Below are positions 1 to 15,688 of a stretch of DNA of 52,548 bases, one piece after another; position 1 is the stretch's first letter, and each line of letters starts with the position of its first letter. Under the pieces are notes generated by a model. That model did not search any database and had not been told where the DNA came from. It was given only the letters and a program-made list of their open reading frames with translations. The DNA is taken from assembly GCA_946060685.1 (NCBI GenBank), contig CAMGOT010000002.1, positions 1 to 52,548 of the forward strand. The letters run 5' to 3'. The stretch comes from an uncultured Bacteroidales bacterium. Its GTDB lineage: Bacteria; Bacteroidota; Bacteroidia; Bacteroidales; Bacteroidaceae. Position numbers and translations under genes: made by a program.

Positions 1-110
1 AAGAAAAAATAGAGAACGCCAAGCAAATGATTGCCATCGGCATGACTGACGAACAAATCTGTATGGTCACCAAACTTTCCATCAGTGAGGTGGGGGCTTT
101 AAGGCAATGA
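1..110 (+). CDS. C-terminal fragment of a Rpn/PD-(D/E)XK-family transposase-like protein (truncated by window start)
   Basis: Frame 3 reads EKIENAKQMIAIGMTDEQICMVTKLSISEVGALRQ*, resembling the C-terminal tail of Rpn family nuclease/transposases. Confidence 0.5.
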   Translation, partial: EKIENAKQMIAIGMTDEQICMVTKLSISEVGALRQ

Positions 111-476
111 GAAGCTGCATCTCCACCTCTTTGAGCAGAAACTGAAAGCATTCCCGGGCAGTTCCAAGCGATACCCGTGAGAAGGAGACAGACGTTATAG
201 AGCATACTCTTGCCTTTACAGGGCGAAGAGACGGCAGTTCATCTACCATAGGGGTGTTGACTTCTTCTTCCTTCTTCCCGCTCGGTATAGCAGGGGCAAG
301 TTCCGTTCTGTCCTCACTCCGTCGTCGATTGCCTTGGGCTATGTACTTGTTACCCCTTCGGGGCATACACAAAACGATGGATTCCCCCGACCCTGCCGCA
401 AATCTTTCATTTGGCTAAGGCTTCACACACCACTTCCCCACCCGATTTTCATTCTTGTCACCATAGAAAATACAGT

Positions 477-515
477 GTGCCCATCCCGTTGGACTTTAGT
501 CTACGGGATGGGCAC
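477..515 (-). terminator. Hairpin downstream of the lipoprotein operon
   Basis: GTGCCCATCCCGT ... ACGGGATGGGCAC perfect 13-bp stem, followed on the minus strand by ACTGTATTTTC. Confidence 0.6.
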
Positions 516-615
516 TACCGTTACCTACGACTTCTTCTCAGGAACTATTCATATCCTTGCCCGCCAGCACTCTGCCGCAGCATTGTACAAGCAGCTTTGC
601 TTTTTCCGAAACCGA

Positions 616-1305
616 TCAAGGCACGGTGTTTTCCACTACACTCACCGAAGCCGTGTTGTTGTAGCCATAGCACACATTGTAGAACTTTCCGGCGGCCACT
701 TCGGTATAACTTACTACAGCGTGCTCATTGGCCACTCCGTCGGTGTTCGTGGCTTTCAGCTGATAGGTAAAGCCTGCCGAAGGATCGAGATAGGCTTTCT
801 GGCCGTCCCTCAAGGTCATCGTACGACTACCACTGCTGACGCTGAAGGTATAGGAGGAGAAGAGGGTGGAAAAACTGGGAGGGAGTGTCAGGCCTACAGC
901 GTAGTTCAACATCGGCACCGCGTACACGCAGTAGACCGTTTCGTCCTCGCCCACACTCACGGTAGTCTCGCCCCAAAAGCATCCTTCGCCCAGTCCGCCG
1001 TTTGCCGACTGCCATGTACTTTGATTGTCGGTATATGCCCGTACGGTATAGAGGACATTGGCCTCCAGCTCTATCTTTGAAGGTGCTGTACCCGGAGCAT
1101 AACTCTTGTAGATATTGCCGTCGGGCTTGCGAATTTCCAAGGTAAGGTCGGCATCTACGGCACGCGTAAGCATCTGCGGCACGCCGGAACGCACCAGACT
1201 GAGCGACAAGATACCATGCCCCGTACCTCCTGCCTCCATCTCATCCTGCTGGCAGGAAGCCAGGAAAAGGAGGGAGAGTATGATAAAGAAGATGTTGCGT
1301 TTCAT
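616..1305 (-). CDS. DUF4493-like lipoprotein (229 aa)
   Basis: Signal peptide with lipobox LLFLASC followed by acidic QQDE; start overlaps the upstream stop (TAATG). Confidence 0.75.
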   Translation of the reverse strand: MKRNIFFIILSLLFLASCQQDEMEAGGTGHGILSLSLVRSGVPQMLTRAVDADLTLEIRKPDGNIYKSYAPGTAPSKIELEANVLYTVRAYTDNQSTWQSANGGLGEGCFWGETTVSVGEDETVYCVYAVPMLNYAVGLTLPPSFSTLFSSYTFSVSSGSRTMTLRDGQKAYLDPSAGFTYQLKATNTDGVANEHAVVSYTEVAAGKFYNVCYGYNNTASVSVVENTVP

Positions 1306-3113
1306 TATTGGCCGTATTTATAGGAAAGGATATAGACTCGGCTGCATGTCTGTCCCGAACCGTAACTGTTGTTTGCCTTCGCCTCCTGAACCAACGAGGA
1401 GGTCGTGAAATACTCCGTACCCTCATAATAGTGGTCCTTGCTGTTAAGTGCACCACTTGAGGACTTTGCACTGAAATAGGTATAATCCCCGAAAAGAAGC
1501 GAGAGCGTAGTAGCCACCGTGGCTCCATGGGACATACAGTTGTAGTAGGCCTCGACCTTCACGCCAGCGGGCACATAGAACATGGCAGTCGTGATATATT
1601 GCGGCTGGCTGGTGGTATTCTGACCAAGTCGCACAAACTCATCTGTCCAGTTGGTGGTTCCATAGGAACTCCAAGCCTCCTGCGTAGGCGGTGCAAAACT
1701 TACGGGCATACCCGTTACGGTCATCGCCTTGTTCGTGGAAAGCGATACCTTGTCGAATACGGCACTGGCCGTCAAGGCATAGGCATTGGGGGGTACCCCC
1801 GTGGCATCCTCATAGACGGTGACGGCATCGTCCTCTTCCTTCACGGGAAGATCCTGCCCATTCACGTTGCAAGCCAGCGCTCTGGTATAGCGGCTGTCGG
1901 CCATCAGCGAGGGATCGACATTGAAGCTCAGTGTCGGATGGTAGATGGTGTAAGGGTCGCAACTGTTGGCACCGTCCACATCGCCTTTCAGATATACATC
2001 GTAGGAAGTATAGGCATCCAGAATCTTCAGTTCCAACGCAGGATTTTCCACCTTAAAGGAGCGCGAGCCCGTACGCTCTGCTACTCCATTCTGCATCAGA
2101 TAATAGGTGGCGGTATATGTTCCTGCCGGCATATATTTCCAACCTTCAGCATTGGCCTTATAGGAAGAAGACAGCTCACCTGTACCCTGCACCGTGCGGT
2201 AAACGTTTCCGTCAGCATCGGCCACTTCGGCCTTCCATTCCATACCAGGATAGCAGTCGGTAAAGGTCAGGTCGGTACCTATCAAATTGCCGCCAGTCGT
2301 AAAGCGGTGGGTGGCACTGACCTGCGGCAAAGGCAACCAGGAAAGGGGGATATTCTCGCCCAGCGTGGCTTCCTCCACCTGCACCTTACTGATATCCACC
2401 GCCGCCACATTCTCCGGGTCGGGAAGTGCAAGGGTGACAATGGCATGGATGCCGGCCTTAAACACATCAGGGAAGAGGGTACCATTAGTATTCAACGGCA
2501 TGCTCACCGTACGCCCGTCGGCCCTCAATTTTCCAAAGAACACTGGGTTCACCGTACTGCCCGCACGGACATATACGCTGAGGTCTGGCCGGAGATTCGT
2601 CACCTCACCATAGTATTCGCCGATATAGAGGCGAAGGGAATAGCTTTCGTAGAACTTGTCGAAGCGGGCGGTCTCCTCCTCATTGCGTCCGAAGATGGCA
2701 GACACCAAGGCATTGCCCACCCCGCAGGTGATGCTCGCCTGGCTCACCTGTCCGTCAGCCACCTGCACCGTAGTGCTTCCCGTATAATAAGGAGCATCAA
2801 TGGCTATCAAAGAATTCTCGCCGTAGGATGCCGACACCGTATACTCTCCTGCTCCGAGGGGAATGCGCACATCGGCATAGGGCTCACGATACACCTCCAC
2901 CCCCCTGGCATTCTTCACGCTTACCGTGAAACGCTCTACTGCCGGTACACCAATCTGTCCGGGAACAGTGCGCACCTTCACGCTGGGGGAGATATTCTCC
3001 AATGATACCTGGAGCAATCCTTCCCCCATCACATGCTCTGGCTCATCGCTGCACGACACAGAAAACATGGCACCGGCAAGGCAGAGAAATAGGGCTAAGC
3101 AATAGTTTCTCAT
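1305..3113 (-). CDS. DUF4493 domain lipoprotein (602 aa)
   Basis: Lipobox FSVSC-SDEPEH; N-terminal GEGLLQVSLE...YTVSASYGENSLIAIDAPYYTGSTTVQVADGQVSQASITCG resembles DUF4493. Confidence 0.8.
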   Translation of the reverse strand: MRNYCLALFLCLAGAMFSVSCSDEPEHVMGEGLLQVSLENISPSVKVRTVPGQIGVPAVERFTVSVKNARGVEVYREPYADVRIPLGAGEYTVSASYGENSLIAIDAPYYTGSTTVQVADGQVSQASITCGVGNALVSAIFGRNEEETARFDKFYESYSLRLYIGEYYGEVTNLRPDLSVYVRAGSTVNPVFFGKLRADGRTVSMPLNTNGTLFPDVFKAGIHAIVTLALPDPENVAAVDISKVQVEEATLGENIPLSWLPLPQVSATHRFTTGGNLIGTDLTFTDCYPGMEWKAEVADADGNVYRTVQGTGELSSSYKANAEGWKYMPAGTYTATYYLMQNGVAERTGSRSFKVENPALELKILDAYTSYDVYLKGDVDGANSCDPYTIYHPTLSFNVDPSLMADSRYTRALACNVNGQDLPVKEEDDAVTVYEDATGVPPNAYALTASAVFDKVSLSTNKAMTVTGMPVSFAPPTQEAWSSYGTTNWTDEFVRLGQNTTSQPQYITTAMFYVPAGVKVEAYYNCMSHGATVATTLSLLFGDYTYFSAKSSSGALNSKDHYYEGTEYFTTSSLVQEAKANNSYGSGQTCSRVYILSYKYGQ

Positions 3114-4819
3114 TCGTATAAAAGTTTCAGATTATCGACTTTCAGGAGGGTCTCACTGCCTCCGATGAAATAATCGCCGAACTTGCTGCTCGCTGCCACC
3201 ACGACGATGTATTTGGGCTTACGGTCGGTGTGCCTGTAATTGAGGGTGATGGTTTCGGTGGTCCATGCAGGCACATCGGCCCCTTTCGTCATCTGGCCGT
3301 AGGCTATCACATTGTCGCTGTTGGGATTGAAGAGTTTCAGCGTGCTGGGACGTGTGCGTACGACGAAGGGGTAGGTCACGTCCTTATAGACCTCCTCGTC
3401 CTTGTCGCCGATCAGGGCAACGAACACCTGGCAGGTGTCGGGCTGTCCGAGGAGATTGTCGTAGGTGTTGCGGCTGATGTACTTGCCGTAGCTGTCGTCC
3501 CACTTGCCGCCACCCTTGTTGATGGTAGAAGTCTTGAAGGAATAGTCAAACTGCAGTTTCGTGGGGTAGCTGCTGAAGGGCTGTCCGAAACTCAGGATGC
3601 CGTTTGTGCCATCGGTCTCCAGGTACTTTCCTGCGAAGATGTTTCCGGCGGCAAACTTGATGACGATATATTTCGACTGCAGGTTGGCAAAGATGCGGTC
3701 GCCTTCCGTTCCCATCGTGGAATTGCTCTGCCCCACGGTAGTGGCTCCACGGTTGCCAGTGTCCCAAAAGGGCGTGTCGCCAGCCTTCCAAGGCTGATAG
3801 AGGTCCCGGCCACCCACATCAGAGGTGGACCACTCGTCAAAACTGCTGTTGGGCAGCTGCAGAGGGTCGGCGGTATGGAAAGCACATACCGGCGAGGTCA
3901 CACCATCGGCGGTAGTGCGGCAGAGATAGTCTGCACCTGCCGTCAGACCATCGATGACCGCCTTATAGTCTGATTTTCCGATGATGACATTCTCTCCTAC
4001 CACTACACGCCAGTTGTCGGAGCCTGCCTCACAGTATTCCACTACAGGAATCGTACCATTCTGCATCACTCCGCTCACGTAGGCTCTGACGGAATGGGGA
4101 AACACCTCGCACGTGGTGGTCTGTGTAGAAGCGGCATTATAGACGAATATCGTCCATTCCTGTGCAGTCTCATTGTTGTACTCAAACACGGCATACGTCC
4201 TTCCACGGGTGAAATCCACCTCCGTGCCAGTAGGATCAGGATATACTCTGCCATGCTGACCTCCGAGCATGAACTTCAACACCTTCACACTGTTGAGTTT
4301 CTGTTCCGGAGTGACATAGGCGACAACGTTGCAGTTCACGGGGTCAATCACCGCCTCGCCCACTTGGTTTTCCAGCACGACCTCACGCTGCACAATGCGC
4401 TCCACATTCACCTTCCAGCGGAATTCCTGGTAGGTTTTGAGGAGGAGGTTGGCACTTCCCTTGCTGCAATCAAGTACTGGGAGCGTATGCGTTACCTCCA
4501 CGAGTCCTCCATCAGCTATCTCCTTATACACGAAAGCATTGTTGCTTACGCCGAACTTCTTGAGTTTCACCCTTGCGAGATCCACCTGATCGTTCACATA
4601 CAGTGAAATTTCACGATTCTCCTTATCGATCTGTGCTTCGGCAAACTCATTGCCGGTGGCATCACATTGTCCCTCCACTTCGAAAGTCGTAATCTCCGAC
4701 TTCACCCAGGGCAGGGGCAGGCTCTCCTCCTCGAGGCACGAGGTCAGCAGCAGGGCCGCCGCCACAATAATCTTTATGAAACTGAAATGATAAGAATGGG
4801 TCATATTACGATAACTCAT
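3110..4819 (-). CDS. Lipoprotein with C-terminal PCMD-like (putative carbohydrate metabolism) domain (569 aa)
   Basis: Lipobox LLLTSC-LEEES; LPNSSFDEWS...FWDTGNRGATTVGQSNSTMGTEGDRIFANLQSKYIVIKFAAGNIFAGKY; start possibly 4804; 4-nt overlap with next ORF. Confidence 0.75.
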   Translation of the reverse strand: MSYRNMTHSYHFSFIKIIVAAALLLTSCLEEESLPLPWVKSEITTFEVEGQCDATGNEFAEAQIDKENREISLYVNDQVDLARVKLKKFGVSNNAFVYKEIADGGLVEVTHTLPVLDCSKGSANLLLKTYQEFRWKVNVERIVQREVVLENQVGEAVIDPVNCNVVAYVTPEQKLNSVKVLKFMLGGQHGRVYPDPTGTEVDFTRGRTYAVFEYNNETAQEWTIFVYNAASTQTTTCEVFPHSVRAYVSGVMQNGTIPVVEYCEAGSDNWRVVVGENVIIGKSDYKAVIDGLTAGADYLCRTTADGVTSPVCAFHTADPLQLPNSSFDEWSTSDVGGRDLYQPWKAGDTPFWDTGNRGATTVGQSNSTMGTEGDRIFANLQSKYIVIKFAAGNIFAGKYLETDGTNGILSFGQPFSSYPTKLQFDYSFKTSTINKGGGKWDDSYGKYISRNTYDNLLGQPDTCQVFVALIGDKDEEVYKDVTYPFVVRTRPSTLKLFNPNSDNVIAYGQMTKGADVPAWTTETITLNYRHTDRKPKYIVVVAASSKFGDYFIGGSETLLKVDNLKLLYE

Positions 4820-4875
4820 AAGGGTAGATTCACCTATATTTGGGATGTATAAGCCATGTGCATAACCCGGCAGTA

Positions 4876-5898
4876 TCAGAGATAGAACGTCATGCCGATG
4901 TTGATGCTGAAGAGGTTGAAGCGGAAGTTGGCTCCTCCTCCCTTTCTCTTTCCATATTCATACTTGAGGTCGCCGGGATGGAGGTTCTTGAACTTTCCCC
5001 ACTGGTAGTCCACTCCGAGCACACCGATGGAGGTTTCCACGGCAGCATAGTCGGTGACGAAGACGCAGATACCCGGCGAGAATCCAAGCTGCACGGTGTT
5101 GATGCGCTCATAGGTACCGTCGAGCGTGTTGAGCCCGGCAGCCTCATCGCGGCGGCCCGTGGTGTTCATTCCCGTAGTATGGATATAGGAGGCACGGATT
5201 TCGCTGAAACATCCCAGGATTTTGCTGCCGAAGAGCGACATATAGTTTCTGATGAAGAAGCTGCCCGTATGCCTGTGTTCCATATAGTAGAGGTCTTCCA
5301 GACTGATATTGAAGTCCTCCCCGAGGTTGAGGTCCATATTGCCAAGGAAGAAATAGTTTCGCCCGTAGTTGTAGCGCAGACCGATAGCCACATTGTTCTT
5401 AACGAAAAATCCCACGGCAGGCGACACGGAAAGGGAATGCCCGTCCATGTTGAGGTCCTTGAGCACGAGCAGGTTTTCGCTCTCGTTGTCCCACTGCCTG
5501 TAGTTGACGGTAGCTCCCATCATCCAGAGTCCCTTCGGCACGAACACCGCCTTGACGGCACTGCGGTCCACACGCTGTATGTGGCGTTTGTTCGTCAGTT
5601 TCTCCTGATAGTAAGGCGCACGTCGGCCATAATACAGCGAGTCGCGGTAGGCATCCGTCCCGAAGCCATAGCGGCTGGCATTATCGTAAACTGCCATACC
5701 CTGTCCTCGCGACTCACCTTCCGGTGTATACACCCTGACGCGTTGCACTTTCTTGTCCTCTTCGCTGATGCTTTTCACAGCCAGCACATCAGGATTTCGT
5801 ATGTCACCGCGCTGGGCGAAGACGGCTGCCGATGAAGAGAACAGCAGCGCAGTCAGCAACATACTCAGCAACATACTATGTTTGAAATAGACTTTCAT
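4876..5898 (-). CDS. Outer-membrane beta-barrel / porin-like protein (340 aa)
   Basis: Signal peptide then alternating aromatic strands, terminal aromatic pattern FSINIGMTFYL. Confidence 0.7.
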   Translation of the reverse strand: MKVYFKHSMLLSMLLTALLFSSSAAVFAQRGDIRNPDVLAVKSISEEDKKVQRVRVYTPEGESRGQGMAVYDNASRYGFGTDAYRDSLYYGRRAPYYQEKLTNKRHIQRVDRSAVKAVFVPKGLWMMGATVNYRQWDNESENLLVLKDLNMDGHSLSVSPAVGFFVKNNVAIGLRYNYGRNYFFLGNMDLNLGEDFNISLEDLYYMEHRHTGSFFIRNYMSLFGSKILGCFSEIRASYIHTTGMNTTGRRDEAAGLNTLDGTYERINTVQLGFSPGICVFVTDYAAVETSIGVLGVDYQWGKFKNLHPGDLKYEYGKRKGGGANFRFNLFSINIGMTFYL

Positions 5899-5968
5899 TA
5901 AGAAATGGTATTAAGATGGTGTACTTTTACGGTAGGAAAACCTACAGGCCCCATTCGGGTTTCAATTG

Positions 5969-5976
5969 CAAAAGTA
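5969..5976 (-). promoter_or_regulatory. Bacteroidota -7 box (TACTTTTG) upstream of the beta-barrel gene
   Basis: caaaagta on + strand = TACTTTTG on minus, matches TAnnTTTG; no clear -33. Confidence 0.5.
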
Positions 5977-6154
5977 CGCTTTTTCTTAGACAAAAGGGTT
6001 AAAAAAGAACAATAATTCTTTCTTAAAAGCCATATTTCCTTATCGCACACAGATTTTTGACCTCGGGTATGGAAAAACTCCGCGCCACAAAGTCAAAAAT
6101 CCGTCGTTGCGAAAAGCAATAATGCAAGCCCGAAGGCATAAACTGTCGGGATAG

Positions 6155-6193
6155 GGCATGCCGACTTCCATAGGTTCAGGAAGCCGTCATGCC
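6155..6193 (-). terminator. Imperfect hairpin after the 6219-8018 gene
   Basis: GGCATGCCGACTTCC / GGAAGCCGTCATGCC, 13 of 15 pairs; weak T run. Confidence 0.35.
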
Positions 6194-6218
6194 TTTTCCT
6201 GTTATGATTGGTCAGCTA

Positions 6219-8018
6219 CTATTGTCTGGTCGGCTGTCCCCATTCGAAGGAGAACTCGTCGAGGAGGAGATTAGAAGAATCTGAACCGTAGAAGAAATCT
6301 CCCCACTTGCTCGAAGCGCAAACTATAAGCAGGTGTGTAGGCTTGGCTGTTGTATTATGATACACGAGAGGTATGCTAAACTGCTTCCAGTTTGCATCCG
6401 TCGTATTCTGCGACAATTCACCATAGGCAATGACGCGCGGATCAGTCTGCCAGTTGATGGCTGTCGACAATTCGTAGCCTGATGTGGAAGTATTCGCAAC
6501 CTTAAGTTGCTCTGTAAGTAGCGCGCAGAAGATTTGACAATGGTCATTCTCGCCCGATGAAGCAGTAGCACTTTCTGGTTTAGAACCCCTATTGATAGGT
6601 CCTGGAGTATACTTCATATAACCCTTCAAAGCAGAAGGCCGTGAAGTAAAAGGAACACCCCAGTTGAGTTTTGCACCCTTAGTACCTACAAGTCCTACAA
6701 AATCACCCGTAAAGAGGCTAGCAGCAGCAAACTTGATAACGACATATTGCGATGTCAACTGCGCAGAGGTGCCGCTATAAGCACCATTAGTGATTGGGAC
6801 TGTCAGATTATAGCCAAAACTTGCAGAACCTGGATTACTGGTACTCCAGTATGATACACCTGCCATACCAGGAACATCCGCATCACCATCCTTATACCAT
6901 TTCTCGAAATCACCATTGTAGATAGCCGTCTGAGCCTCAGTAGTAAACTTGGTCTCGTTGCTGTTGACAGTCGATACACCGTCATCATAGCGCAGACGAT
7001 AGACGTAGGCCGTGTTGGGGGCAAGCCCTGTCAAGCGTGTGGTGTAAGTATCGTTGGAGCCTGCCGTAAGCTGGCTGTTGGCTATGGTCGCCCACTCTGC
7101 ATCGCTCTGCTTCTTATATTGGAAGGTCAACTTCGAAGCATCGAAATCCGAGGTCTTTGACATCACGCCGGCAGAAAGGTCGGCAAAAGTGCTCCAAGTG
7201 TTTGGAGTAGAAGTCTGCAACGAGATGGCACTCTTTCGGGGAATGGAGATGATGAAATCATACTGATGCGTAGTCTCGTCGACCGTGACGGTGACACCAC
7301 CCATATGACCAATTTCTGCCAGTTTGTAGGTGATTTTGTAGTAGTCGCGGGCACTCACTTCCGTCACATCCTGAGTCATGACATTAGTGTTATTGCTGTT
7401 GTTGGTAGCGACCAGCTGGAAATGCAAGGGTGCTACAGGAAAATACGCTGCACTGCTGGAAGCGTTGCCCATGTAGAAGTTACAGGGAGCCACATCGGCT
7501 ATATCAGAGGTGACGATGCTGTTTGCAGACTTGAAATAAGGTTTGAGATTATCGTCGAACGTGACACTCACCTTCACATTGGCCTGTGTGAGGGTAAGGG
7601 TTGCACGGGTCAGACTCTTGGTGAGTACGGTGACTTTGGTACTGCCCACATAATAGGGGGCATCGAAACCAGAGCCGGAGCCATCCCATCCTGCCGACGA
7701 ACCACTGACGGTATAGGTATCTGGAGCCAGCGCGATATTGCTCTTGAGGCGCTCATCGTTCACGGCATCGCTACTTTCAAACACCACCGTGCCTGCACTG
7801 TTGGTTATCTTCAGGGCAATGGTCTTGGGGTCATAGCCCGAAGGAGCAGAGGTGGCAGCACGCATATCCTTGTCGTTGGTGGAGACCAGCGTGGAGAGGT
7901 CCAACTTGAGATAGCCCTGCGTCATCTCCTCCTCACTCATGGTATCACTGCAGGACAGTGCAAGGAGCGACAGGCAGAAAACGGCCATCCATGTCAGGAT
8001 TGAATATATTGTTTTCAT
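6219..8018 (-). CDS. DUF4493 + PCMD-like domain lipoprotein (599 aa)
   Basis: Lipobox LLALSC-SDTMSEEE; FDAPYYVGSTKVTVLTKSLTRATLTLTQANVKVSVTFDD; C-terminal YNGDFEKWYKDGD...SQYVVIKFAAASLFTGDFVG. Confidence 0.8.
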   Translation of the reverse strand: MKTIYSILTWMAVFCLSLLALSCSDTMSEEEMTQGYLKLDLSTLVSTNDKDMRAATSAPSGYDPKTIALKITNSAGTVVFESSDAVNDERLKSNIALAPDTYTVSGSSAGWDGSGSGFDAPYYVGSTKVTVLTKSLTRATLTLTQANVKVSVTFDDNLKPYFKSANSIVTSDIADVAPCNFYMGNASSSAAYFPVAPLHFQLVATNNSNNTNVMTQDVTEVSARDYYKITYKLAEIGHMGGVTVTVDETTHQYDFIISIPRKSAISLQTSTPNTWSTFADLSAGVMSKTSDFDASKLTFQYKKQSDAEWATIANSQLTAGSNDTYTTRLTGLAPNTAYVYRLRYDDGVSTVNSNETKFTTEAQTAIYNGDFEKWYKDGDADVPGMAGVSYWSTSNPGSASFGYNLTVPITNGAYSGTSAQLTSQYVVIKFAAASLFTGDFVGLVGTKGAKLNWGVPFTSRPSALKGYMKYTPGPINRGSKPESATASSGENDHCQIFCALLTEQLKVANTSTSGYELSTAINWQTDPRVIAYGELSQNTTDANWKQFSIPLVYHNTTAKPTHLLIVCASSKWGDFFYGSDSSNLLLDEFSFEWGQPTRQ

Positions 8019-8034
8019 TTCTATTTCGATTTGA

Positions 8035-9312
8035 TCACTCTACTACTTTTATAAGGATTGTTCCAGACTTGGTATTATCGTCCATATCCGTTACAGTCAT
8101 ATTAAAGCGATGATTACCCACAAGTACCTGAAGAAGAGTAAAGAAATTTCCAACGGGGAAAGTATATTCTCTATCACCCCTTGCTGGAACACTTATAGTT
8201 TTACCCAAGCTTCTAAACAAGGCCACTAAATTTTGGTTATCCACGACCTCTGCACCTGCAAGAAAATCCACCGCAAAGTTTGTATTCAAATCAGCAAGAG
8301 ATTCGTTCATTTCTTGACTGTCAGAAATAATGGTTACCTTAATACTCTTTATTCCTGCACTTGCAGCAATGTACGTATCACCCTTTGACGCATCAGGAAT
8401 ATTTCCTGGGGACATTGTTATGTCATTCGGCAAATTGAGCGTGATACTTCCTTCTTCGCCAGAACCGCCGCCAGAACCGCCGCCTTGGTTAGGATCGTCA
8501 AGTCCAGGTACGTCAATGACATCAACCGTAATATTTTCAGTAGTCTCATCGAACACCACACTGGCAGAGATATTGATACCCGTGATTTTTCCTTCGGTAC
8601 TCTCCGTGGGAGCAAAATTCATCGTAATCAGGTCGCCACCGGTGAAGTTTTCTTCGTCGTCATCATAACCGCCCTGGCTGCTCTGGTTCTTGGTCAGCAC
8701 ATTGCGTGCGGCAATGGTATTGCCGGAAGCGGTGGTACCACGGAAGTTCACCACAATCTGCTTCACACCGCCATCACCAAAATACCAATATACCGTGCTG
8801 GACTGATTGGCAGTGGTCTTGAAACTCATGACCGTATTGCTGCCATCCTCGATGGTGATTTCCCACTCGCTGAAAACATTGCGGAATTCATTGTCATAGT
8901 TGACCGTCACCTGGCTGTTCTCCATCTTGCAGACCACCTCGACGGGCGAATTCACATCCTTGACAATCTCCACATCGGCAGCACCCTTATAATAAGGGCT
9001 GGGCATACTTTTGGCAATATTTCCCGGAGTGTGCGACTCTACCGTATAGTTTCCTACCGACATCTGGATGGAACTCGGCACTTCGCCTACCGTGGCATAT
9101 TCCTTCACCACAGTACCGCTGGCATCCTTGATGACTACGGGAAAATCCGTGGTGCTGACATCGCGGCGCGCAGGCTGGAGCACCTCAACGTTCAGCTCCA
9201 GCGTACCCTCGTCGCCTCCGGCCGTGAACTTGGACTCCAGGTCCTCGTTCATACAAGAGGAGAAAGCCATCAGGGCTATCGCTCCCGCAAAGATTTTATT
9301 GTAGAATTTCAT
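8035..9312 (-). CDS. DUF4493 domain lipoprotein (425 aa)
   Basis: Lipobox LMAFSSC-MNEDLE; GTLELNVEVLQ...YTVESHTPGNIAKSMPSPYYKGAADVEIVKDVNSPVEVVCKMENSQVTVNYD. Confidence 0.8.
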   Translation of the reverse strand: MKFYNKIFAGAIALMAFSSCMNEDLESKFTAGGDEGTLELNVEVLQPARRDVSTTDFPVVIKDASGTVVKEYATVGEVPSSIQMSVGNYTVESHTPGNIAKSMPSPYYKGAADVEIVKDVNSPVEVVCKMENSQVTVNYDNEFRNVFSEWEITIEDGSNTVMSFKTTANQSSTVYWYFGDGGVKQIVVNFRGTTASGNTIAARNVLTKNQSSQGGYDDDEENFTGGDLITMNFAPTESTEGKITGINISASVVFDETTENITVDVIDVPGLDDPNQGGGSGGGSGEEGSITLNLPNDITMSPGNIPDASKGDTYIAASAGIKSIKVTIISDSQEMNESLADLNTNFAVDFLAGAEVVDNQNLVALFRSLGKTISVPARGDREYTFPVGNFFTLLQVLVGNHRFNMTVTDMDDNTKSGTILIKVVE

Positions 9313-9377
9313 ATCTTTGTCTGATTTGTCTGTAATCTAATTGAAAAACTATTTGCATTCACTGGGATTCAAGACGC

Positions 9378-10211
9378 TTAAATCCAGGTGACGGGCACCT
9401 CCCAGGTGATTTCCTTGTCGTTGGTGCTCTCGTCGATGGTGATGGTGAGGCTGATGCCGCCCTCTGTGCTCGGCTTATAGTTAGGAGCGATGGTCAGCTT
9501 GTGCGCCTTGTTGCGCAGCAGCTGGATTGTACCCGTCACCTCTGCCGTGTTCGTGGTGCTTCCCTCCGGCAGATAATCGGCCTTTGCCGTCATCTTGATG
9601 GTATAGTTCACAGTCTCACCGTTCGCGGCAAGTGCGACATACCAAGGTGCAGTGTCTGCCTTTGCCCAGGTGCAGGTCTGCGAGCCCATAGCCTGCGTAC
9701 CCGCGTAAGTCACGCTGTAATCGTCGAAATAGGTAGCCATCGCAGCATCAAAATCCACGGAAAGCTTTCCACAAGTGGGGGAGCAACTCACACTCACCGT
9801 CTGCTCCGTATTGGCATTGACGGTCACGGTGGTCTCACCCCTCACCAGGAATTCATCGCGGGAGAAGGGATGCTCCGCACCATAGGATGCTATAATGGTA
9901 TACGAACCTATTTCCAACGCTTTGGGCAGATAGTCGTTCATAGAAGCGTATGCAAATTCCATCACATCGCTGCCGGACTTCATATCAACAACCCTGACTG
10001 TATAATTGCCTGTATTTCTATAGTCAGCCTCCGAGAGCGCACGAGTCAGAGGGTCGAACTCCGAGTCGACCGTCAAGGTTCCCAGATTCAACGTGCCATA
10101 CACCTTGTCGGAGCCGACACCGAAATCAAACCCTGGGTCTTCAGACATACATGAGGACAGTGCCACCGCAGCACCGAGGCTCACGCAAGAAATTAGATGT
10201 TTCAGTTTCAT
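9378..10211 (-). CDS. DUF4493 domain lipoprotein (277 aa)
   Basis: Start reassigned to MKLKHLISCVSLGAAVALSSC-MSEDPG; the longer ORF runs through poly-G tracts and tandem repeats. Confidence 0.75.
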   Translation of the reverse strand: MKLKHLISCVSLGAAVALSSCMSEDPGFDFGVGSDKVYGTLNLGTLTVDSEFDPLTRALSEADYRNTGNYTVRVVDMKSGSDVMEFAYASMNDYLPKALEIGSYTIIASYGAEHPFSRDEFLVRGETTVTVNANTEQTVSVSCSPTCGKLSVDFDAAMATYFDDYSVTYAGTQAMGSQTCTWAKADTAPWYVALAANGETVNYTIKMTAKADYLPEGSTTNTAEVTGTIQLLRNKAHKLTIAPNYKPSTEGGISLTITIDESTNDKEITWEVPVTWI

Positions 10212-10310
10212 TTGCGTTTTGGTTATTTGTCGATTTTTTAATTGGCGTTTGTTTTCAATAGTCGTTTGTTTTGTTGGTCGTGATTTAATGCATAATGAAA
10301 TTTGTGAATA

Positions 10311-10358
10311 GGGGGGGGGTGAAATATAAAAGTGGCATGGAAATAGCAGGGGGGGGGG
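10311..10358. repeat. Two poly-G tracts (G9 at 10311-10319, G10 at 10349-10358)
   Basis: Direct reading of sequence upstream of the minus-strand operon. Confidence 0.9.
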
Positions 10359-10403
10359 AAATTCCTGATGCGCATGAGCATTTTTCGTGCCGCATGCAAA
10401 CCC

Positions 10404-10445
10404 CATGAAAACACTTGGCTTCGCCATGAAAGCACTTGGCTTCGC
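10404..10445. repeat. 21-bp tandem repeat x2
   Basis: CATGAAAACACTTGGCTTCGC / CATGAAAGCACTTGGCTTCGC. Confidence 0.9.
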
Positions 10446-10591
10446 AAGGAGGGATAAAAGAAAAAAACAGGGCAAAAAGCATATTCATGCAGCAACCTGC
10501 ACAATGCCATTACCACCAAGCCTTTTTACAAAAGGCACACACTAAAGTGTGTAGTTTTCAAATCTTTAGCATTTGTCTTGTTTTCCGAGTG

Positions 10592-10599
10592 CAAAATTA
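10592..10599 (-). promoter_or_regulatory. Candidate -7 box (TAATTTTG) for the lipoprotein operon
   Basis: caaaatta on +; TTTG occurs upstream but at 16-nt rather than 19-nt spacing. Confidence 0.5.
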
Positions 10600-11133
10600 G
10601 GGTAAAAACCCGAAACAAAAATATATTTTTTGGTAGATTCCATATTTTTACCAATTCTACACCGACAACTGACATATTGGAAAAGCATAAAACAACAAGG
10701 GCTACACACCCCCCTCACTTTGCGCAAAAGGGGAATTTCAACGATGAAACCGCCGGAAATCACCGCTGAAGATGAGGAAAATCACCCCGGATGTTTATTT
10801 TTTGCAAGCGGTAGTTTCAGGAAACCACCGCTTGACATCTCCCCCCCCTTTCACACGGTAGAACCGAAAACACCCATTTTGGAAGCACAGAGAAAGCGGA
10901 AAACCAAAGAAAACACCGAAAACCGAGTGGTGAGCACCGTACCTACGCGTTTCCAAACATCAGGACAGTGCGACATCCCAAAGCAGCAGAAGCGACGGCA
11001 CATGTACGCCCATGGGAACAAAGCGCAGGGAGATGGGCCAGGGGGCATCTACCTGCATTGCTTCATGAAGCACAGCCTTTCACTTTCCCATGGCATAAAC
11101 CCAAGCGGGACTCGTGCGCGCCTTTGACATTTG

Positions 11134-11219
11134 CGTTCAGCCATGGCTGAACGGCCGAGTATGTCAACATCATCGGCCACAGAAGTAAACATAAATCACC
11201 GTTCAGCCTTGGCTGAACG
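11134..11219. repeat. Paired palindromes CGTTCAGCC(..)GGCTGAACG
   Basis: 11134-11153 CGTTCAGCCATGGCTGAACG (perfect); 11200-11219 CGTTCAGCCTTGGCTGAACG. Confidence 0.9.
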
Positions 11220-11282
11220 CAAAACCTTAAGCATAGGCCGAAACATGCTGACAATAAGCCTATGCAAAACTAATAGATATTC

Positions 11283-11866
11283 GGGGGTATTCTAAAAATA
11301 ATGCGCGTACGATCATGTATCACTCGTCATCGTCAAGCACTACTACTGATATTTCAGAGAAGATATACTTCATCGGCAAAGTAAGTACTACTTCTCAGGC
11401 AAAGTAAATATACTCAACTTTCGCAAGTTCAAATAGCTTGTGTTTCAGAAGTAACGGTACGCCCTGAAAGGGCAGCAAGTACATAGCCCAGGCGGGCGCC
11501 CTGGGTGGTTTGACCGCTGCAAATGCGCCCTGAAAGGGCAAAAGTATAAGCATACAGGTGATGAAGAAACCCAGGGCGTTGCCCTGGGCTATAGACTTTT
11601 GCCCTTTCAGGGCGATGATGCGCGGCATATACATACACCCAGGGCGCCTGCCTGGGCTATGGAAACCATTGGGCTTTCAGCCCGTTCATACAAACCAATA
11701 CGACCCGCATGAGCACGCCCTGAAAGGGCAATTCCCTCCTTAGACCAAGGCAACACCCTGGGCATTCACAACCAAATAGAACCCAGCGAAACTTGAATAA
11801 GTATATCTTCTCTGAAATAAAGTTTCAACTGAAATTCTATCAAGATTCATTTATAGAACACCCCCT
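11283..11866. mobile_element. Compound element with outer TIR-like ends, inner 20-bp inverted repeat and internal GC-rich dyad array
   Basis: Outer GGGGGTATTCTAAAAATAAT (11283) vs revcomp GGGGGTGTTCTATAAATGAA (11846-11865); inner ATTTCAGAGAAGATATACTT (11351-11370) and exact reverse complement (11799-11818). Confidence 0.55.
11461..11760. repeat. Alternating dyad array: GCCCTGAAAGGGC and CCCAGGGC-N-GCCCTGGG
   Basis: GCCCTGAAAGGGC at 11461, 11527, 11717; inverted at 11601; variant GGGCTTTCAGCCC at 11671; CCCAGG...CCTGGG dyads near 11487, 11570, 11638. Confidence 0.85.
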
Positions 11867-14080
11867 TTATTTCAGATAGTCGTCGAAATAGCGGGTGATG
11901 CGCTCATGGAGATGAATCATGTCCTTGCCCATCATGTTGTGGTCCTGACCGGGATATACGAAATAGTCGGGCTGGACATCGGCATCCTCACAGGCACGGA
12001 GGAAGGCCAGGGAGTGCTGGAGCAGACAGGTACGGTCGTTCAGTCCGACGATGACCTGCAGACGTCCCTTGAGATTCTTCGCCTTGTTCAGCAGACTGCT
12101 GGAGGCATAGCCTTCGGGATTCTCCTGGGGGGTGTCCATATAGCGTTCGCCATACATCACTTCATAGAAGCGCCAGTCGATGACGGGACCTCCGGCAACT
12201 CCGACCTTGAAGACGTCGGGATGTGAACACATGAGATTGGTGGTCATAAAGCCACCGAAACTCCAGCCATGAACTCCGATACGGTCGGTATCGACGTAGG
12301 GAAGCGACTTGAGATAGGCCACGCCCTGCATCTGATCCTGCATCTCCACATCTCCGAGATGACGGAAGGTGCAGCTTTCGAAGTCGAAACCACGGTCGCC
12401 ACTGCCACGGCCATCCATCACAAAGAGGATATAGCCACGGTTGGCCATATAATACTCCCAGGGACGGGTAGTATAGTTCCAGCCTTCCTTGACGTTGGTG
12501 GCATGGGGGCCTCCATAGACGTAGACCACTGTGGGATATTTCTTCGAAGGATCGAAACCTACGGGAAGAACGATGCGATAGTAGAGCGGCGTGCAGCCAT
12601 CGGCTGCAGTGAGGGTGCCGCCTTTCACTTCGGGCATGGAATAGTCCTTCCACGGACTTTCACACTCCTGGAAAGTGGCGAGGAGTGCAGGACGTGATGT
12701 GGAACGGAGGTCGAACTGACGGAACACATCGGGCTTTGACCAGCGGTCAGTGAAGAGGGTGCCTGCGGGCGAGAGGGAGGGACGGTGTATGCCCACGCCA
12801 TTGTCGAGCAGTGTACGCTTGCCGGTAGCGAAATCCACGGCATAGACATTCTCGCGGATATGTCCGTTCTCGTTGGTCTTGAGGATGACGCTGCGACGGG
12901 CGGTATTGAAACCCATAAGGTCCAAATCCTCATATTCGCCAGCGGTGAGCTGACGCTCCTCCTGCACTTGCAGCTTGCCCTCCTTCATCTCCATGCGGAA
13001 CACATAAAGATGGTTGAAGCCATCGCGCTCGCTCTGATAGAGGAAGCGGCTGGAATCCCAGGGCAGGAAGGTGAGCGGATGCTGCGGCTCCACGAAGCGG
13101 GCATTGGTCTCGGTATAGAAGACTCCGATACGCTCGCCCGTGGCAGCACAGTAGGCTACGAGGTCGCAACGATCCTGACTACGGGGAAGTTCCATCAGGA
13201 AAATGATTTTGCTGTCGGGACTCCAGGAGACATTGGTGAAATAGCGGTCGGTGGGGTCGCCGGCCTGCAGGTAGACGCTCTTGCCTGTGGCAGGATTGAA
13301 CACGCCCACCGTGACTTTATGGCTCGTCATTCCTGCCATGGGATATTTCTCGGGAGCAGGCTGTGCCATCTGCGTGGTGCTGTCGACCTCGATATCGAGG
13401 AGGGGGAAATCGGTGACCATGCTCTGGTCCATGCGATAGAAGGCAAGAAGGCTGCCGTCGGGGCTCCAGAAGGTGCCTTTATAGATGCCGAACTCATTGC
13501 GATGCACAGAGGTGCCATAGAGCACATCGCGGCTGGCATCGGTGCTCACCTGAAGGTCACTGCCATCGGCAGTACGCACATAGAGGTTATAGTCCTTGAC
13601 GTAGGCCGTACTGTGGGAAGCCTCGCAGAAATCGGTCTCCGACACTCCTTTCAGCCGTGGCTGATGCCATACGATGGTATGCTTCGTCCAATCGTACTCC
13701 ACCACATTGGCATCGGAACTGAGCCGCACGATGTGACGTTCGGCATCGGAGAAGACGGCATACTGGAGGGTACGGATGCTGTCGGCAGGGAAAAGCACAT
13801 GAAGGGCGGCATTGGCTTCCTGACGGGAGAAGAGGAAAGCTTTCTTGCCCGACACCGTTTTGCCACGATGGTCGGACATCAGAGAGCAGGTGTCAACACC
13901 CGTGCGCACCAGATTCTCTCCCCACCATGCCGTGGAGATATTCTCCGGCTGGAGGGTCCAGTATTTATTGCCTCCCCACATCAGTTCGTCGAGCGTGGGG
14001 CTTTTCAGTGTCTGTGCCATAAGGACTGCTGGGAAAAGCAGCATGAGGACTGCGAAGAATGAGCGTTTCATAAATTGCAT
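11867..14080 (-). CDS. Prolyl oligopeptidase (S9) family, dipeptidyl peptidase IV-like (737 aa)
   Basis: C-terminal HGWSFGGFMTTNLMCSHPDVFKVGVAGGPVIDWRFYEVMYGERYMDTPQENPEGY catalytic region; start may be 14071. Confidence 0.88.
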   Translation of the reverse strand: MQFMKRSFFAVLMLLFPAVLMAQTLKSPTLDELMWGGNKYWTLQPENISTAWWGENLVRTGVDTCSLMSDHRGKTVSGKKAFLFSRQEANAALHVLFPADSIRTLQYAVFSDAERHIVRLSSDANVVEYDWTKHTIVWHQPRLKGVSETDFCEASHSTAYVKDYNLYVRTADGSDLQVSTDASRDVLYGTSVHRNEFGIYKGTFWSPDGSLLAFYRMDQSMVTDFPLLDIEVDSTTQMAQPAPEKYPMAGMTSHKVTVGVFNPATGKSVYLQAGDPTDRYFTNVSWSPDSKIIFLMELPRSQDRCDLVAYCAATGERIGVFYTETNARFVEPQHPLTFLPWDSSRFLYQSERDGFNHLYVFRMEMKEGKLQVQEERQLTAGEYEDLDLMGFNTARRSVILKTNENGHIRENVYAVDFATGKRTLLDNGVGIHRPSLSPAGTLFTDRWSKPDVFRQFDLRSTSRPALLATFQECESPWKDYSMPEVKGGTLTAADGCTPLYYRIVLPVGFDPSKKYPTVVYVYGGPHATNVKEGWNYTTRPWEYYMANRGYILFVMDGRGSGDRGFDFESCTFRHLGDVEMQDQMQGVAYLKSLPYVDTDRIGVHGWSFGGFMTTNLMCSHPDVFKVGVAGGPVIDWRFYEVMYGERYMDTPQENPEGYASSSLLNKAKNLKGRLQVIVGLNDRTCLLQHSLAFLRACEDADVQPDYFVYPGQDHNMMGKDMIHLHERITRYFDDYLK

Positions 14081-14089
14081 GATTACAGA

Positions 14090-15688
14090 TTATCTTTTGC
14101 TACCACCACGGCCGCCCTTGAAACCATCCCGGCCGCCTTTAAAGCCTTCTCTTCCGCCTTGACGACGGTCGCGACCTACACGGTTGTCGCGACTGTCGCG
14201 GCCTTCGCGACCTTCGCGACGCTCCTTGCCACCACTCTTCTGTCCGCGCTCACGGGCTTGCGACTCCTCGAAACTGCGGTGACGATTGCGGAGGGCACGG
14301 TACTGTTCTGCCATCTCCTCATCCTCAAAGAGGTCTTCAGGACGGGGAGCACGACGGGGACGCTCGCCATCGGCATCATCATGACGGCGACGGTTCTTGA
14401 AGTCAGGGTCGTACTTACGGCTGAACTCTCGCTCACGGCCATCGCGGAAACGGCGCTTCTCGCCCATACGGCTCAGTTCGTCACGGGACTTTACAGCACC
14501 TCCCTCGGCACGGAACTGGTCGAGCTTGCCTGCAAAGGTGACGAACTTGCGCACCTCGCAGTCGAGGGAACCATTTTGCAAAGGCACCTTCAACGACGGA
14601 CGCAGACCGATGGCATCGAACAGTTCTTCCTTGCTGGAGATGACCCATGCCTCCCCTCCCGTGAACTCTTGCTTGAGCTTCTTGCCCAGCGTCTTGTAGA
14701 GTACGGTGATGTCCTCGGGATGCAGGCGCTCGCCATAGGGCGGATTGGTAAACATCAGACGATGAGGGGCTTTGCCGTCGTCAGCGGAAGCGGCTTCCTG
14801 GGCTTCCGACATCTTGAAATCACGGATGTCGCGCTGCTCCACACTGACGATGTCATCCACACGTGCCGCCTTGAGATTGGCGAGTGCTGCACGAACGGCA
14901 TTGTTGTTGAGGTCGAAACCATAGATATGATGATGGAACTCGCGCTCCTGAGAATCGTCCTCGAAGATTTCGCCGAGCAGTTCGGGGTCGAAGTCTTTCC
15001 AGTTCTCAAAGCCGAATTTCTTGCGGAACACACCGGGATAGATATTGCGGGCCATAAGGGCGGCCTCGACGAGGAAGGTACCGCTGCCGCAGAAGGGGTC
15101 GACGATGTCGCAATCGAACTGCCAGCCACTCATCTTGATGATGGCTGCTGCCAGAACCTCATTGATGGGAGCCTCCACACTCGCCTCGCGATAGCCGCGC
15201 AGATGAAGGCTCTCGCCGCTGGAGTCGAGGGAAAGGGTGCAGACATCCTCGGCAATATGGATATTCAGTCGAAGCTGGGGATTGCTGACGCTGACATTGG
15301 GACGCTTTCCCTCATGCTCCACGAAATAATCCACGATGGCATCCTTCACCTTGTACGTGACGAAGCGCGAATTGCGGAATGTCGTGCTATAGACGGTGGT
15401 ATCGACGGAGAACGAGGTGGTGAGGTCGAGATATTCTGACCATTCTATCCCTTTGACGGCCTGATAGACATCAACGGCATCATGCGCAGTGAAGTGCTTG
15501 ATGGGTTTGAGAATGCGCACGGCAGTGCGAAGGCAGAAATTGGCGCGATACATCATGCGCTTGTCCCCGGAAAAGGAGACCATACGGCGGCCTATCTGCA
15601 CGTCGTCAGCGCCCAATTCAATAAGTTCTTGCGCCAACACCTCCTCAAGTCCCTGAAAGGTCTTGGCTACGAGTTCAAAATTTTCCAT
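14090..15688 (-). CDS. THUMP-domain class I SAM-dependent RNA methyltransferase (RlmL-like) with Arg/Gly-rich C-terminal tail (532 aa)
   Basis: FELVAKTFQGLEEVLAQELIELGADDVQIGRRMVSFSGDKRMMYRANFCLRTAVRIL; DPFCGSGTFLVEAALMARNIYPG; MFTNPPYGERL. Confidence 0.88.
   Translation of the reverse strand: MENFELVAKTFQGLEEVLAQELIELGADDVQIGRRMVSFSGDKRMMYRANFCLRTAVRILKPIKHFTAHDAVDVYQAVKGIEWSEYLDLTTSFSVDTTVYSTTFRNSRFVTYKVKDAIVDYFVEHEGKRPNVSVSNPQLRLNIHIAEDVCTLSLDSSGESLHLRGYREASVEAPINEVLAAAIIKMSGWQFDCDIVDPFCGSGTFLVEAALMARNIYPGVFRKKFGFENWKDFDPELLGEIFEDDSQEREFHHHIYGFDLNNNAVRAALANLKAARVDDIVSVEQRDIRDFKMSEAQEAASADDGKAPHRLMFTNPPYGERLHPEDITVLYKTLGKKLKQEFTGGEAWVISSKEELFDAIGLRPSLKVPLQNGSLDCEVRKFVTFAGKLDQFRAEGGAVKSRDELSRMGEKRRFRDGREREFSRKYDPDFKNRRRHDDADGERPRRAPRPEDLFEDEEMAEQYRALRNRHRSFEESQARERGQKSGGKERREGREGRDSRDNRVGRDRRQGGREGFKGGRDGFKGGRGGSKR

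Follow-up and report, generated by a model that had tools for sequence, protein, structure and literature searches.

Seven contiguous genes of an uncultured Bacteroidales bacterium probably encode a surface structure that resembles a type V (FimA/Mfa1-type) pilus, possibly with an outer-membrane barrel (D) and a lipoprotein (C) at its base. The genes occupy positions 616-10211 on the minus strand of the window, the 52,548-nucleotide stretch analysed, and their transcription order is G-F-E-D-C-B-A. The window is one whole contig of the host MAG, which is 2.44 Mb in size and 82% complete. An earlier note on this DNA had guessed at a fimbria-like complex; a FimA-superfamily fold in the predicted model and a conserved pilin-type maturation site strengthened that guess.

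All seven genes lie on the minus strand, and domains were assigned with Pfam. Gene G (9378-10211), the first gene, encodes a 277-aa DUF4493 lipoprotein with its lipidated Cys at position 21; its start was taken as the ATG at 10211, and a longer TTG-start ORF was also listed. Gene F (8035-9312) encodes a 425-aa DUF4493 lipoprotein with Arg49 and a C-terminal domain of about 150 aa that matches no known family. The 599-aa lipoprotein of gene E (6219-8018) consists of DUF4493, an Fn3-like middle part and a C-terminal PCMD jelly-roll. Gene D (4876-5898) encodes a 340-aa protein that is an outer-membrane barrel in the predicted model, and gene C (3110-4819) a 569-aa PCMD lipoprotein without DUF4493. 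Gene B (1305-3113) encodes a 602-aa DUF4493 lipoprotein with Arg48 and a C-terminal region of about 350 aa that matches no known family. Gene A (616-1305) encodes a 229-aa DUF4493 lipoprotein with Arg48, which in the window stops at the last strand of the domain and has no long tail.

The earlier note had proposed at least four DUF4493 paralogues; the results showed five above the curated Pfam cut-off of 27 bits for PF14900 (A 54, B 96, E 134, F 154, G 145), and a common fold is supported for these five of the six lipoproteins. The two PCMD-like proteins it named, C (117 bits) and E (142 bits), likewise exceeded the curated cut-off of 28 bits for PF13201. Its single outer-membrane beta-barrel was borne out by the model of D, which has eight strands; D had no Pfam match. 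All six genes described as consecutive lipoprotein genes do encode lipoproteins, but they are not strictly consecutive, as the gene for the barrel, D, separates E from C. Both overlapping junctions were present: the ATG of B overlaps the TGA of C at 3110-3113 (ATGA), and the ATG of A overlaps the TAA of B at 1305 (TAATG). The flanking genes scanned were those for an S9 peptidase, an RlmL-type methyltransferase, DUF5686 and A2M. A scan of window positions 1-15000 against Rfam gave no match.

The lipoboxes and acidic mature N-termini were found as previously quoted, namely CQQDE (A), CSDEPE (B), CLEEES (C), CSDTMSEEE (E), CMNEDLE (F) and CMSEDPG (G). The published Bacteroides lipoprotein export signal is CS(D/E)2 (PMC6222051), and the six lipoproteins carry similar residues, in agreement with the export-type signal claimed for them. 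A pattern search showed that acidic residues are also common in the orthologues: at least two D/E within +2 to +6 occurred in 62-93% of the orthologues of each gene, compared with 4/30 other regex-called lipoproteins, a noisy control set. By pattern, the proteins are therefore lipoprotein precursors with an export-type signal, like the subunits of type V pili, both in the window and in the orthologues. We infer that this acidic signal directs the flipping of all six lipoproteins to the surface.

We constructed a model of G with AF2 (pLDDT 81, 28 sequences). The model showed a strand at 38-48, followed by a loop containing Arg57 and by further beta domains, while the C-terminal tail was left unplaced. 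When the model was compared with the PDB using Foldseek, ranks 1-20 were all Bacteroidia FimA-superfamily or cell-adhesion proteins, and the matches included 3up6 (E=1.7e-7), 4gpv, 3gf8, 3pay, 3r4r, Mfa3 (5nf4) and Mfa2 (5nfi). The FimA pilus structure 6kmf was matched at E 3.4e-3, and FimA and Mfa1 ranked below 20. TM-scores were modest (0.25-0.44 for the best 20 matches), so the assignment of a FimA-superfamily two-domain fold is drawn from the consistency and E-values of the matches to this predicted model.

At the sequence level, none of the seven proteins had a Pfam or NCBIfam match to the FimA, Mfa1 or Mfa2 families. The lone match with a fimbrial name was FimD_tip_adhes, at 13 bits against a cut-off of 170, on the N-terminal 40 residues of A, which are mostly signal peptide. 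A sequence search of the PDB with G returned no DUF4493 structure and only titin-type Ig noise. Profile-profile comparison of DUF4493 with Mfa2/Mfa-like families gave no link, in a comparison whose positive control also failed and in which several of the comparison ORFs were out of frame. In the open-access literature searched, we found no paper on DUF4493, PF14900, PF13201 or the "PCMD domain"; the paper on the BT2081 structure covers a PCMD member.

In orthologue alignments, each of the five DUF4493 paralogues had an almost invariant Arg, replaced by Lys in some sequences, behind the first strand of the mature protein. The counts were R25/K3 of 28 at Arg57 of G, R26/K2 of 28 at Arg49 of F, R26/K2 of 29 at Arg48 of B and R23/K1 of 25 at Arg48 of A; in the product of gene E the site is also present, with gaps that shift in the alignment. 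The motif [TS][RK][ASTVG] at +11 to +45 was found in 118/132 DUF4493 lipoproteins, in 3/18 C proteins, which thus mostly lack this TRA-type site, and in 2/30 other lipoproteins. Mfa1 is cleaved at Arg49 (PMC5954841), and the basic residue of the DUF4493 proteins falls nearby, at positions 48-57. These results indicate a conserved predicted maturation site of the type V kind in the five paralogues.

The tail of G (263-277, with the pattern DIEVPxxWI) varied less among orthologues than the remainder of the domain did (entropy 1.46 against 1.97 bits). It has a beta pattern and a pLDDT of about 41, and we propose it, on the basis of the model, as a candidate donor strand. Genes for Arg-specific C11 proteases were present in 39/42 genomes carrying DUF4493, yet also in 282/301 genomes of the family overall; this near-universal distribution makes the co-occurrence uninformative. 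No C11 protease was found in the host MAG (82% complete), and the relative G275 had two matches.

The AF2 model of D (pLDDT 71) contained eight strands over residues 125-339, preceded by about 80 disordered and variable N-terminal residues; the C-terminal NLFSINIGMTFYL is conserved. The best solved Foldseek matches were OmpA and OmpW, with E from 4e-5 to 8e-4. A plug-barrel or transport role for D found no support, since an eight-stranded barrel of the OmpA/OmpW type, as modelled here, is too narrow for protein export. Searching the PDB with C by phmmer gave nothing significant. The PCMD profile of E matched 4jrl, 4het, 3s30 and 3hbz (E 8e-26 to 3e-29), and we take 3hbz to be BT2081. For this PCMD protein, the structure paper describes a calcium site together with a deep pocket that putatively holds carbohydrate (PMC2954218). 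The suggestion of glycan binding is thus plausible for E and C, whose PCMD domains have the BT2081 fold, and by analogy the jelly-roll of E likely binds a glycan.

No match to PF08842, the FimB/Mfa2-type anchor family, was found in the locus or in the host MAG (82% complete). C could take the role of such a non-cleaved anchor, and we propose it as the partner of D at the base.

Gene order was compared in 34 stretches from other genomes and two further contigs. By automatic profile assignment, the exact one-strand order G-F-E-D-C-B-A occurred in 20 other loci; the two closest relatives, L040 and L058, also had all seven genes once missed ORFs were added. Conserved gene order, which had been set as a check on the cluster, therefore holds, and its recurrence indicates that the arrangement is more than chance. 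Gene C in G275 and gene A in L040 were intact by tblastn. Upstream of its locus, L058 apparently also has the S9 peptidase and methyltransferase genes found in the window, indicating that the position of the locus is common to L058 and the window.

DUF4493 was detected in 42/301 sampled genomes of the same family, typically as five copies with characteristic sizes, and within the genus it was seen among the sampled genomes in the host genome and G275 only. The barrel D was detected in 41/394 genomes of the order, representing 26 genera and about 20 families. At this level there are frequently two barrels in tandem, preceded by DUF4493 genes of larger size, and in the three most distant loci only D and a PCMD lipoprotein remain as a pair. 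The variant with two tandem barrels was recorded in ten loci from many families of the order, often with a DUF4493 gene of 820-870 aa in front. Five other loci carry a second, diverged B-A-type DUF4493 pair directly downstream of A, which suggests tandem expansion of subunits. Elsewhere in the host genome, locus L068 on contig C36 encodes two more DUF4493 lipoproteins of 268 and 262 aa on the plus strand (11478-12284 and 12393-13181) with the Arg motifs WTRG and TVRAE, and neither a barrel nor a PCMD gene adjoins them. A third PCMD protein of this genome, outside the operon, is encoded in locus L069 on contig C174, at about 3307-4437.

We propose the following assembly. With their acidic export signal, the six lipoproteins would be flipped onto the outside of the cell, where the five DUF4493 proteins would serve as pilin-fold subunits with two domains. 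An Arg-specific protease, for example a surface clostripain, would cleave after the conserved Arg/Lys. This cut would remove the lipid together with the first strand and so open a groove, which the following subunit could fill with its conserved C-terminal tail by donor-strand exchange. G is the likely stalk pilin; F, E and B, each with an N-terminal pilin domain and extra C-terminal domains, may be tip or adaptor subunits, and A is proposed as the terminal subunit. C, a lipoprotein without a cleavage site, and the eight-stranded D would form the base or anchor pair.

Several results support this type V-like reading: ranks 1-20 of the Foldseek search with G, the basic residue that follows the first strand of the mature protein in five paralogues, the strand of G at 38-48 before Arg57 together with its conserved, low-pLDDT tail, and, in over 20 loci, a gene order and gene spacing like those of an operon. 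The domain plan of F, E and B also supports it, as published tip pilins consist of a pilin domain and an extra C-terminal domain (PMC12632263). The reading is weakened by the modest TM-scores, by the lack of a FimB/Mfa2-type anchor in the locus or host MAG and of a C11 protease in the host MAG, and by the presence of five differing pilin-type subunits with no one dominant stalk, which is unusual. The chains of F, E and B run past the tail position, so that their tails are not free ends, which also counts against it. In addition, we know of no type V locus with a dedicated barrel.

Compared with type V pili (FimA-FimE and Mfa1-Mfa5 of Porphyromonas gingivalis and the FimA-superfamily pilins of Bacteroides), the locus shares lipoprotein precursors, a two-domain pilin fold by model and a basic residue after the first predicted strand, as well as subunits of the tip type, extended at the C-terminus by further domains, and a cluster without chaperone or usher; the conserved C-terminal tail of G is a candidate for the C-terminal strand of those pili. 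It differs in that its subunits are DUF4493 and not FimA/Mfa1/Mfa2 proteins by sequence, that a Mfa2-type anchor is lacking, and that the operon includes two PCMD proteins, an eight-stranded barrel and five pilin-fold genes. Because the sequence families and the anchor of type V pili are absent from the locus, and the fold and the cleavage site are there by prediction, we set it apart from a type V pilus proper. It is possible, though rather doubtful, that the locus represents a class of its own among type V pili, spread across the order, in which DUF4493 proteins make up stalk and tip, D and the PCMD lipoprotein C form, as a dedicated pair of barrel and lectin, a base replacing the FimB/Mfa2 anchor, and the D-C pair is an older surface module underlying the pilus.

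The DUF4493 and PCMD lipoproteins might instead surround D in a non-polymerising surface complex, a glycan-binding scaffold with no filament, the pilin fold then reflecting shared ancestry as in many Ig-type lipoproteins. The putative carbohydrate pocket of PCMD (PMC2954218), the large C-terminal domains on F, E and B, the D-C pair kept without DUF4493 in distant loci and the export-type signals on all lipoproteins would suit such a complex. However, neither a near-invariant Arg/Lys in five paralogues nor the conserved, unplaced tail of G would be expected in it, and we consider it unlikely.

PCMD proteins also raise the question of polysaccharide utilisation, as a SusCD-like accessory role was proposed for BT2081 and its B. 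thetaiotaomicron paralogues lie in PULs beside SusC-type porins (PMC2954218). At their C-termini, E and C match the jelly-roll domain of the PCMD family (BT2081; 3hbz, 4het, 4jrl, 3s30); unlike in that family, the PCMD of E is fused to a pilin-fold domain, and the setting is a conserved operon with a barrel alongside, not a PUL. The flanking genes scanned included no SusC/SusD, TonB-dependent porin or glycoside hydrolase, and D is of the OmpA/OmpW type rather than a TonB-dependent porin; this very improbable reading was rejected on gene content. D resembles OmpA/OmpW-type barrels in its eight long modelled strands and differs from them in lacking a periplasmic OmpA domain and a Pfam match and in having the variable, disordered N-terminal extension. 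Its fixed position in the operon and its co-conservation would fit a dedicated lipoprotein export pore, a Slam-like flippase. But its model, nearest to OmpA/OmpW, offers no protein-sized channel, and lipoproteins with export signals occur across the phylum (PMC6222051), whereas D is found in only 41/394 genomes of the order; we regard this role as hardly credible and rejected it on barrel size.

DUF4493 and most PCMD proteins are currently annotated merely as unknown or as "putative glycoside hydrolase". If the type V-like reading is true, they would become parts of an adhesive pilus open to experiment, for which a stalk, tips, a cleavage site and a glycan-binding domain can be named as candidates. 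Roughly one in seven of the family's sampled genomes has the gene set, and roughly one in ten genomes sampled in the order has the barrel. To our knowledge, no other type V-like locus comes with an outer-membrane barrel of its own, so the reading, if true, would also matter for the question of how these pili are anchored.

Across loci, the median intergenic gaps were 32, 16, 78, 11, 9.5 and 9 bp, the D-C junction was a 4-bp overlap in 8/29 loci, and most relatives likely transcribe the cluster as one unit. The Bacteroidota -7-type element TAATTTTG lies upstream of G at 10592-10599 (minus strand). Of 28 loci, 20 had the pattern TANNTTTG upstream of G, whereas 0-5 of 26-30 had it upstream of any one of the other genes; the stretch scanned was 400 bp for G and 250 bp for the others. 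In the window, the promoter-like TACTTTTG (5969-5976, minus strand) lies in the 320-bp gap between E and D as a possible second promoter, so by sequence the cluster may form two transcription units here; the nearest relative, L058, also has a promoter-like element in its long E-D gap. A sigma-70 scan gave a promoter count at chance level, and a terminator scan gave 14 versus 10.4 +/- 3.0. Over the whole window, TANNTTTG occurred 34 times versus 19 expected from shuffles, an excess consistent with Bacteroidota-type promoters.

The G leader comprises about 385 bases between the promoter-like TAATTTTG and gene G. It contains two minus-strand poly-C tracts, one of 10 C at 10349-10358 and one of 9 C at 10311-10319, which could slip and vary expression; L058 is without them. 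The leader also contains, at about 10400-10445, a near-perfect tandem repeat of 21 bp, GCGAAGCCAAGTG[CT]TTTCATG.
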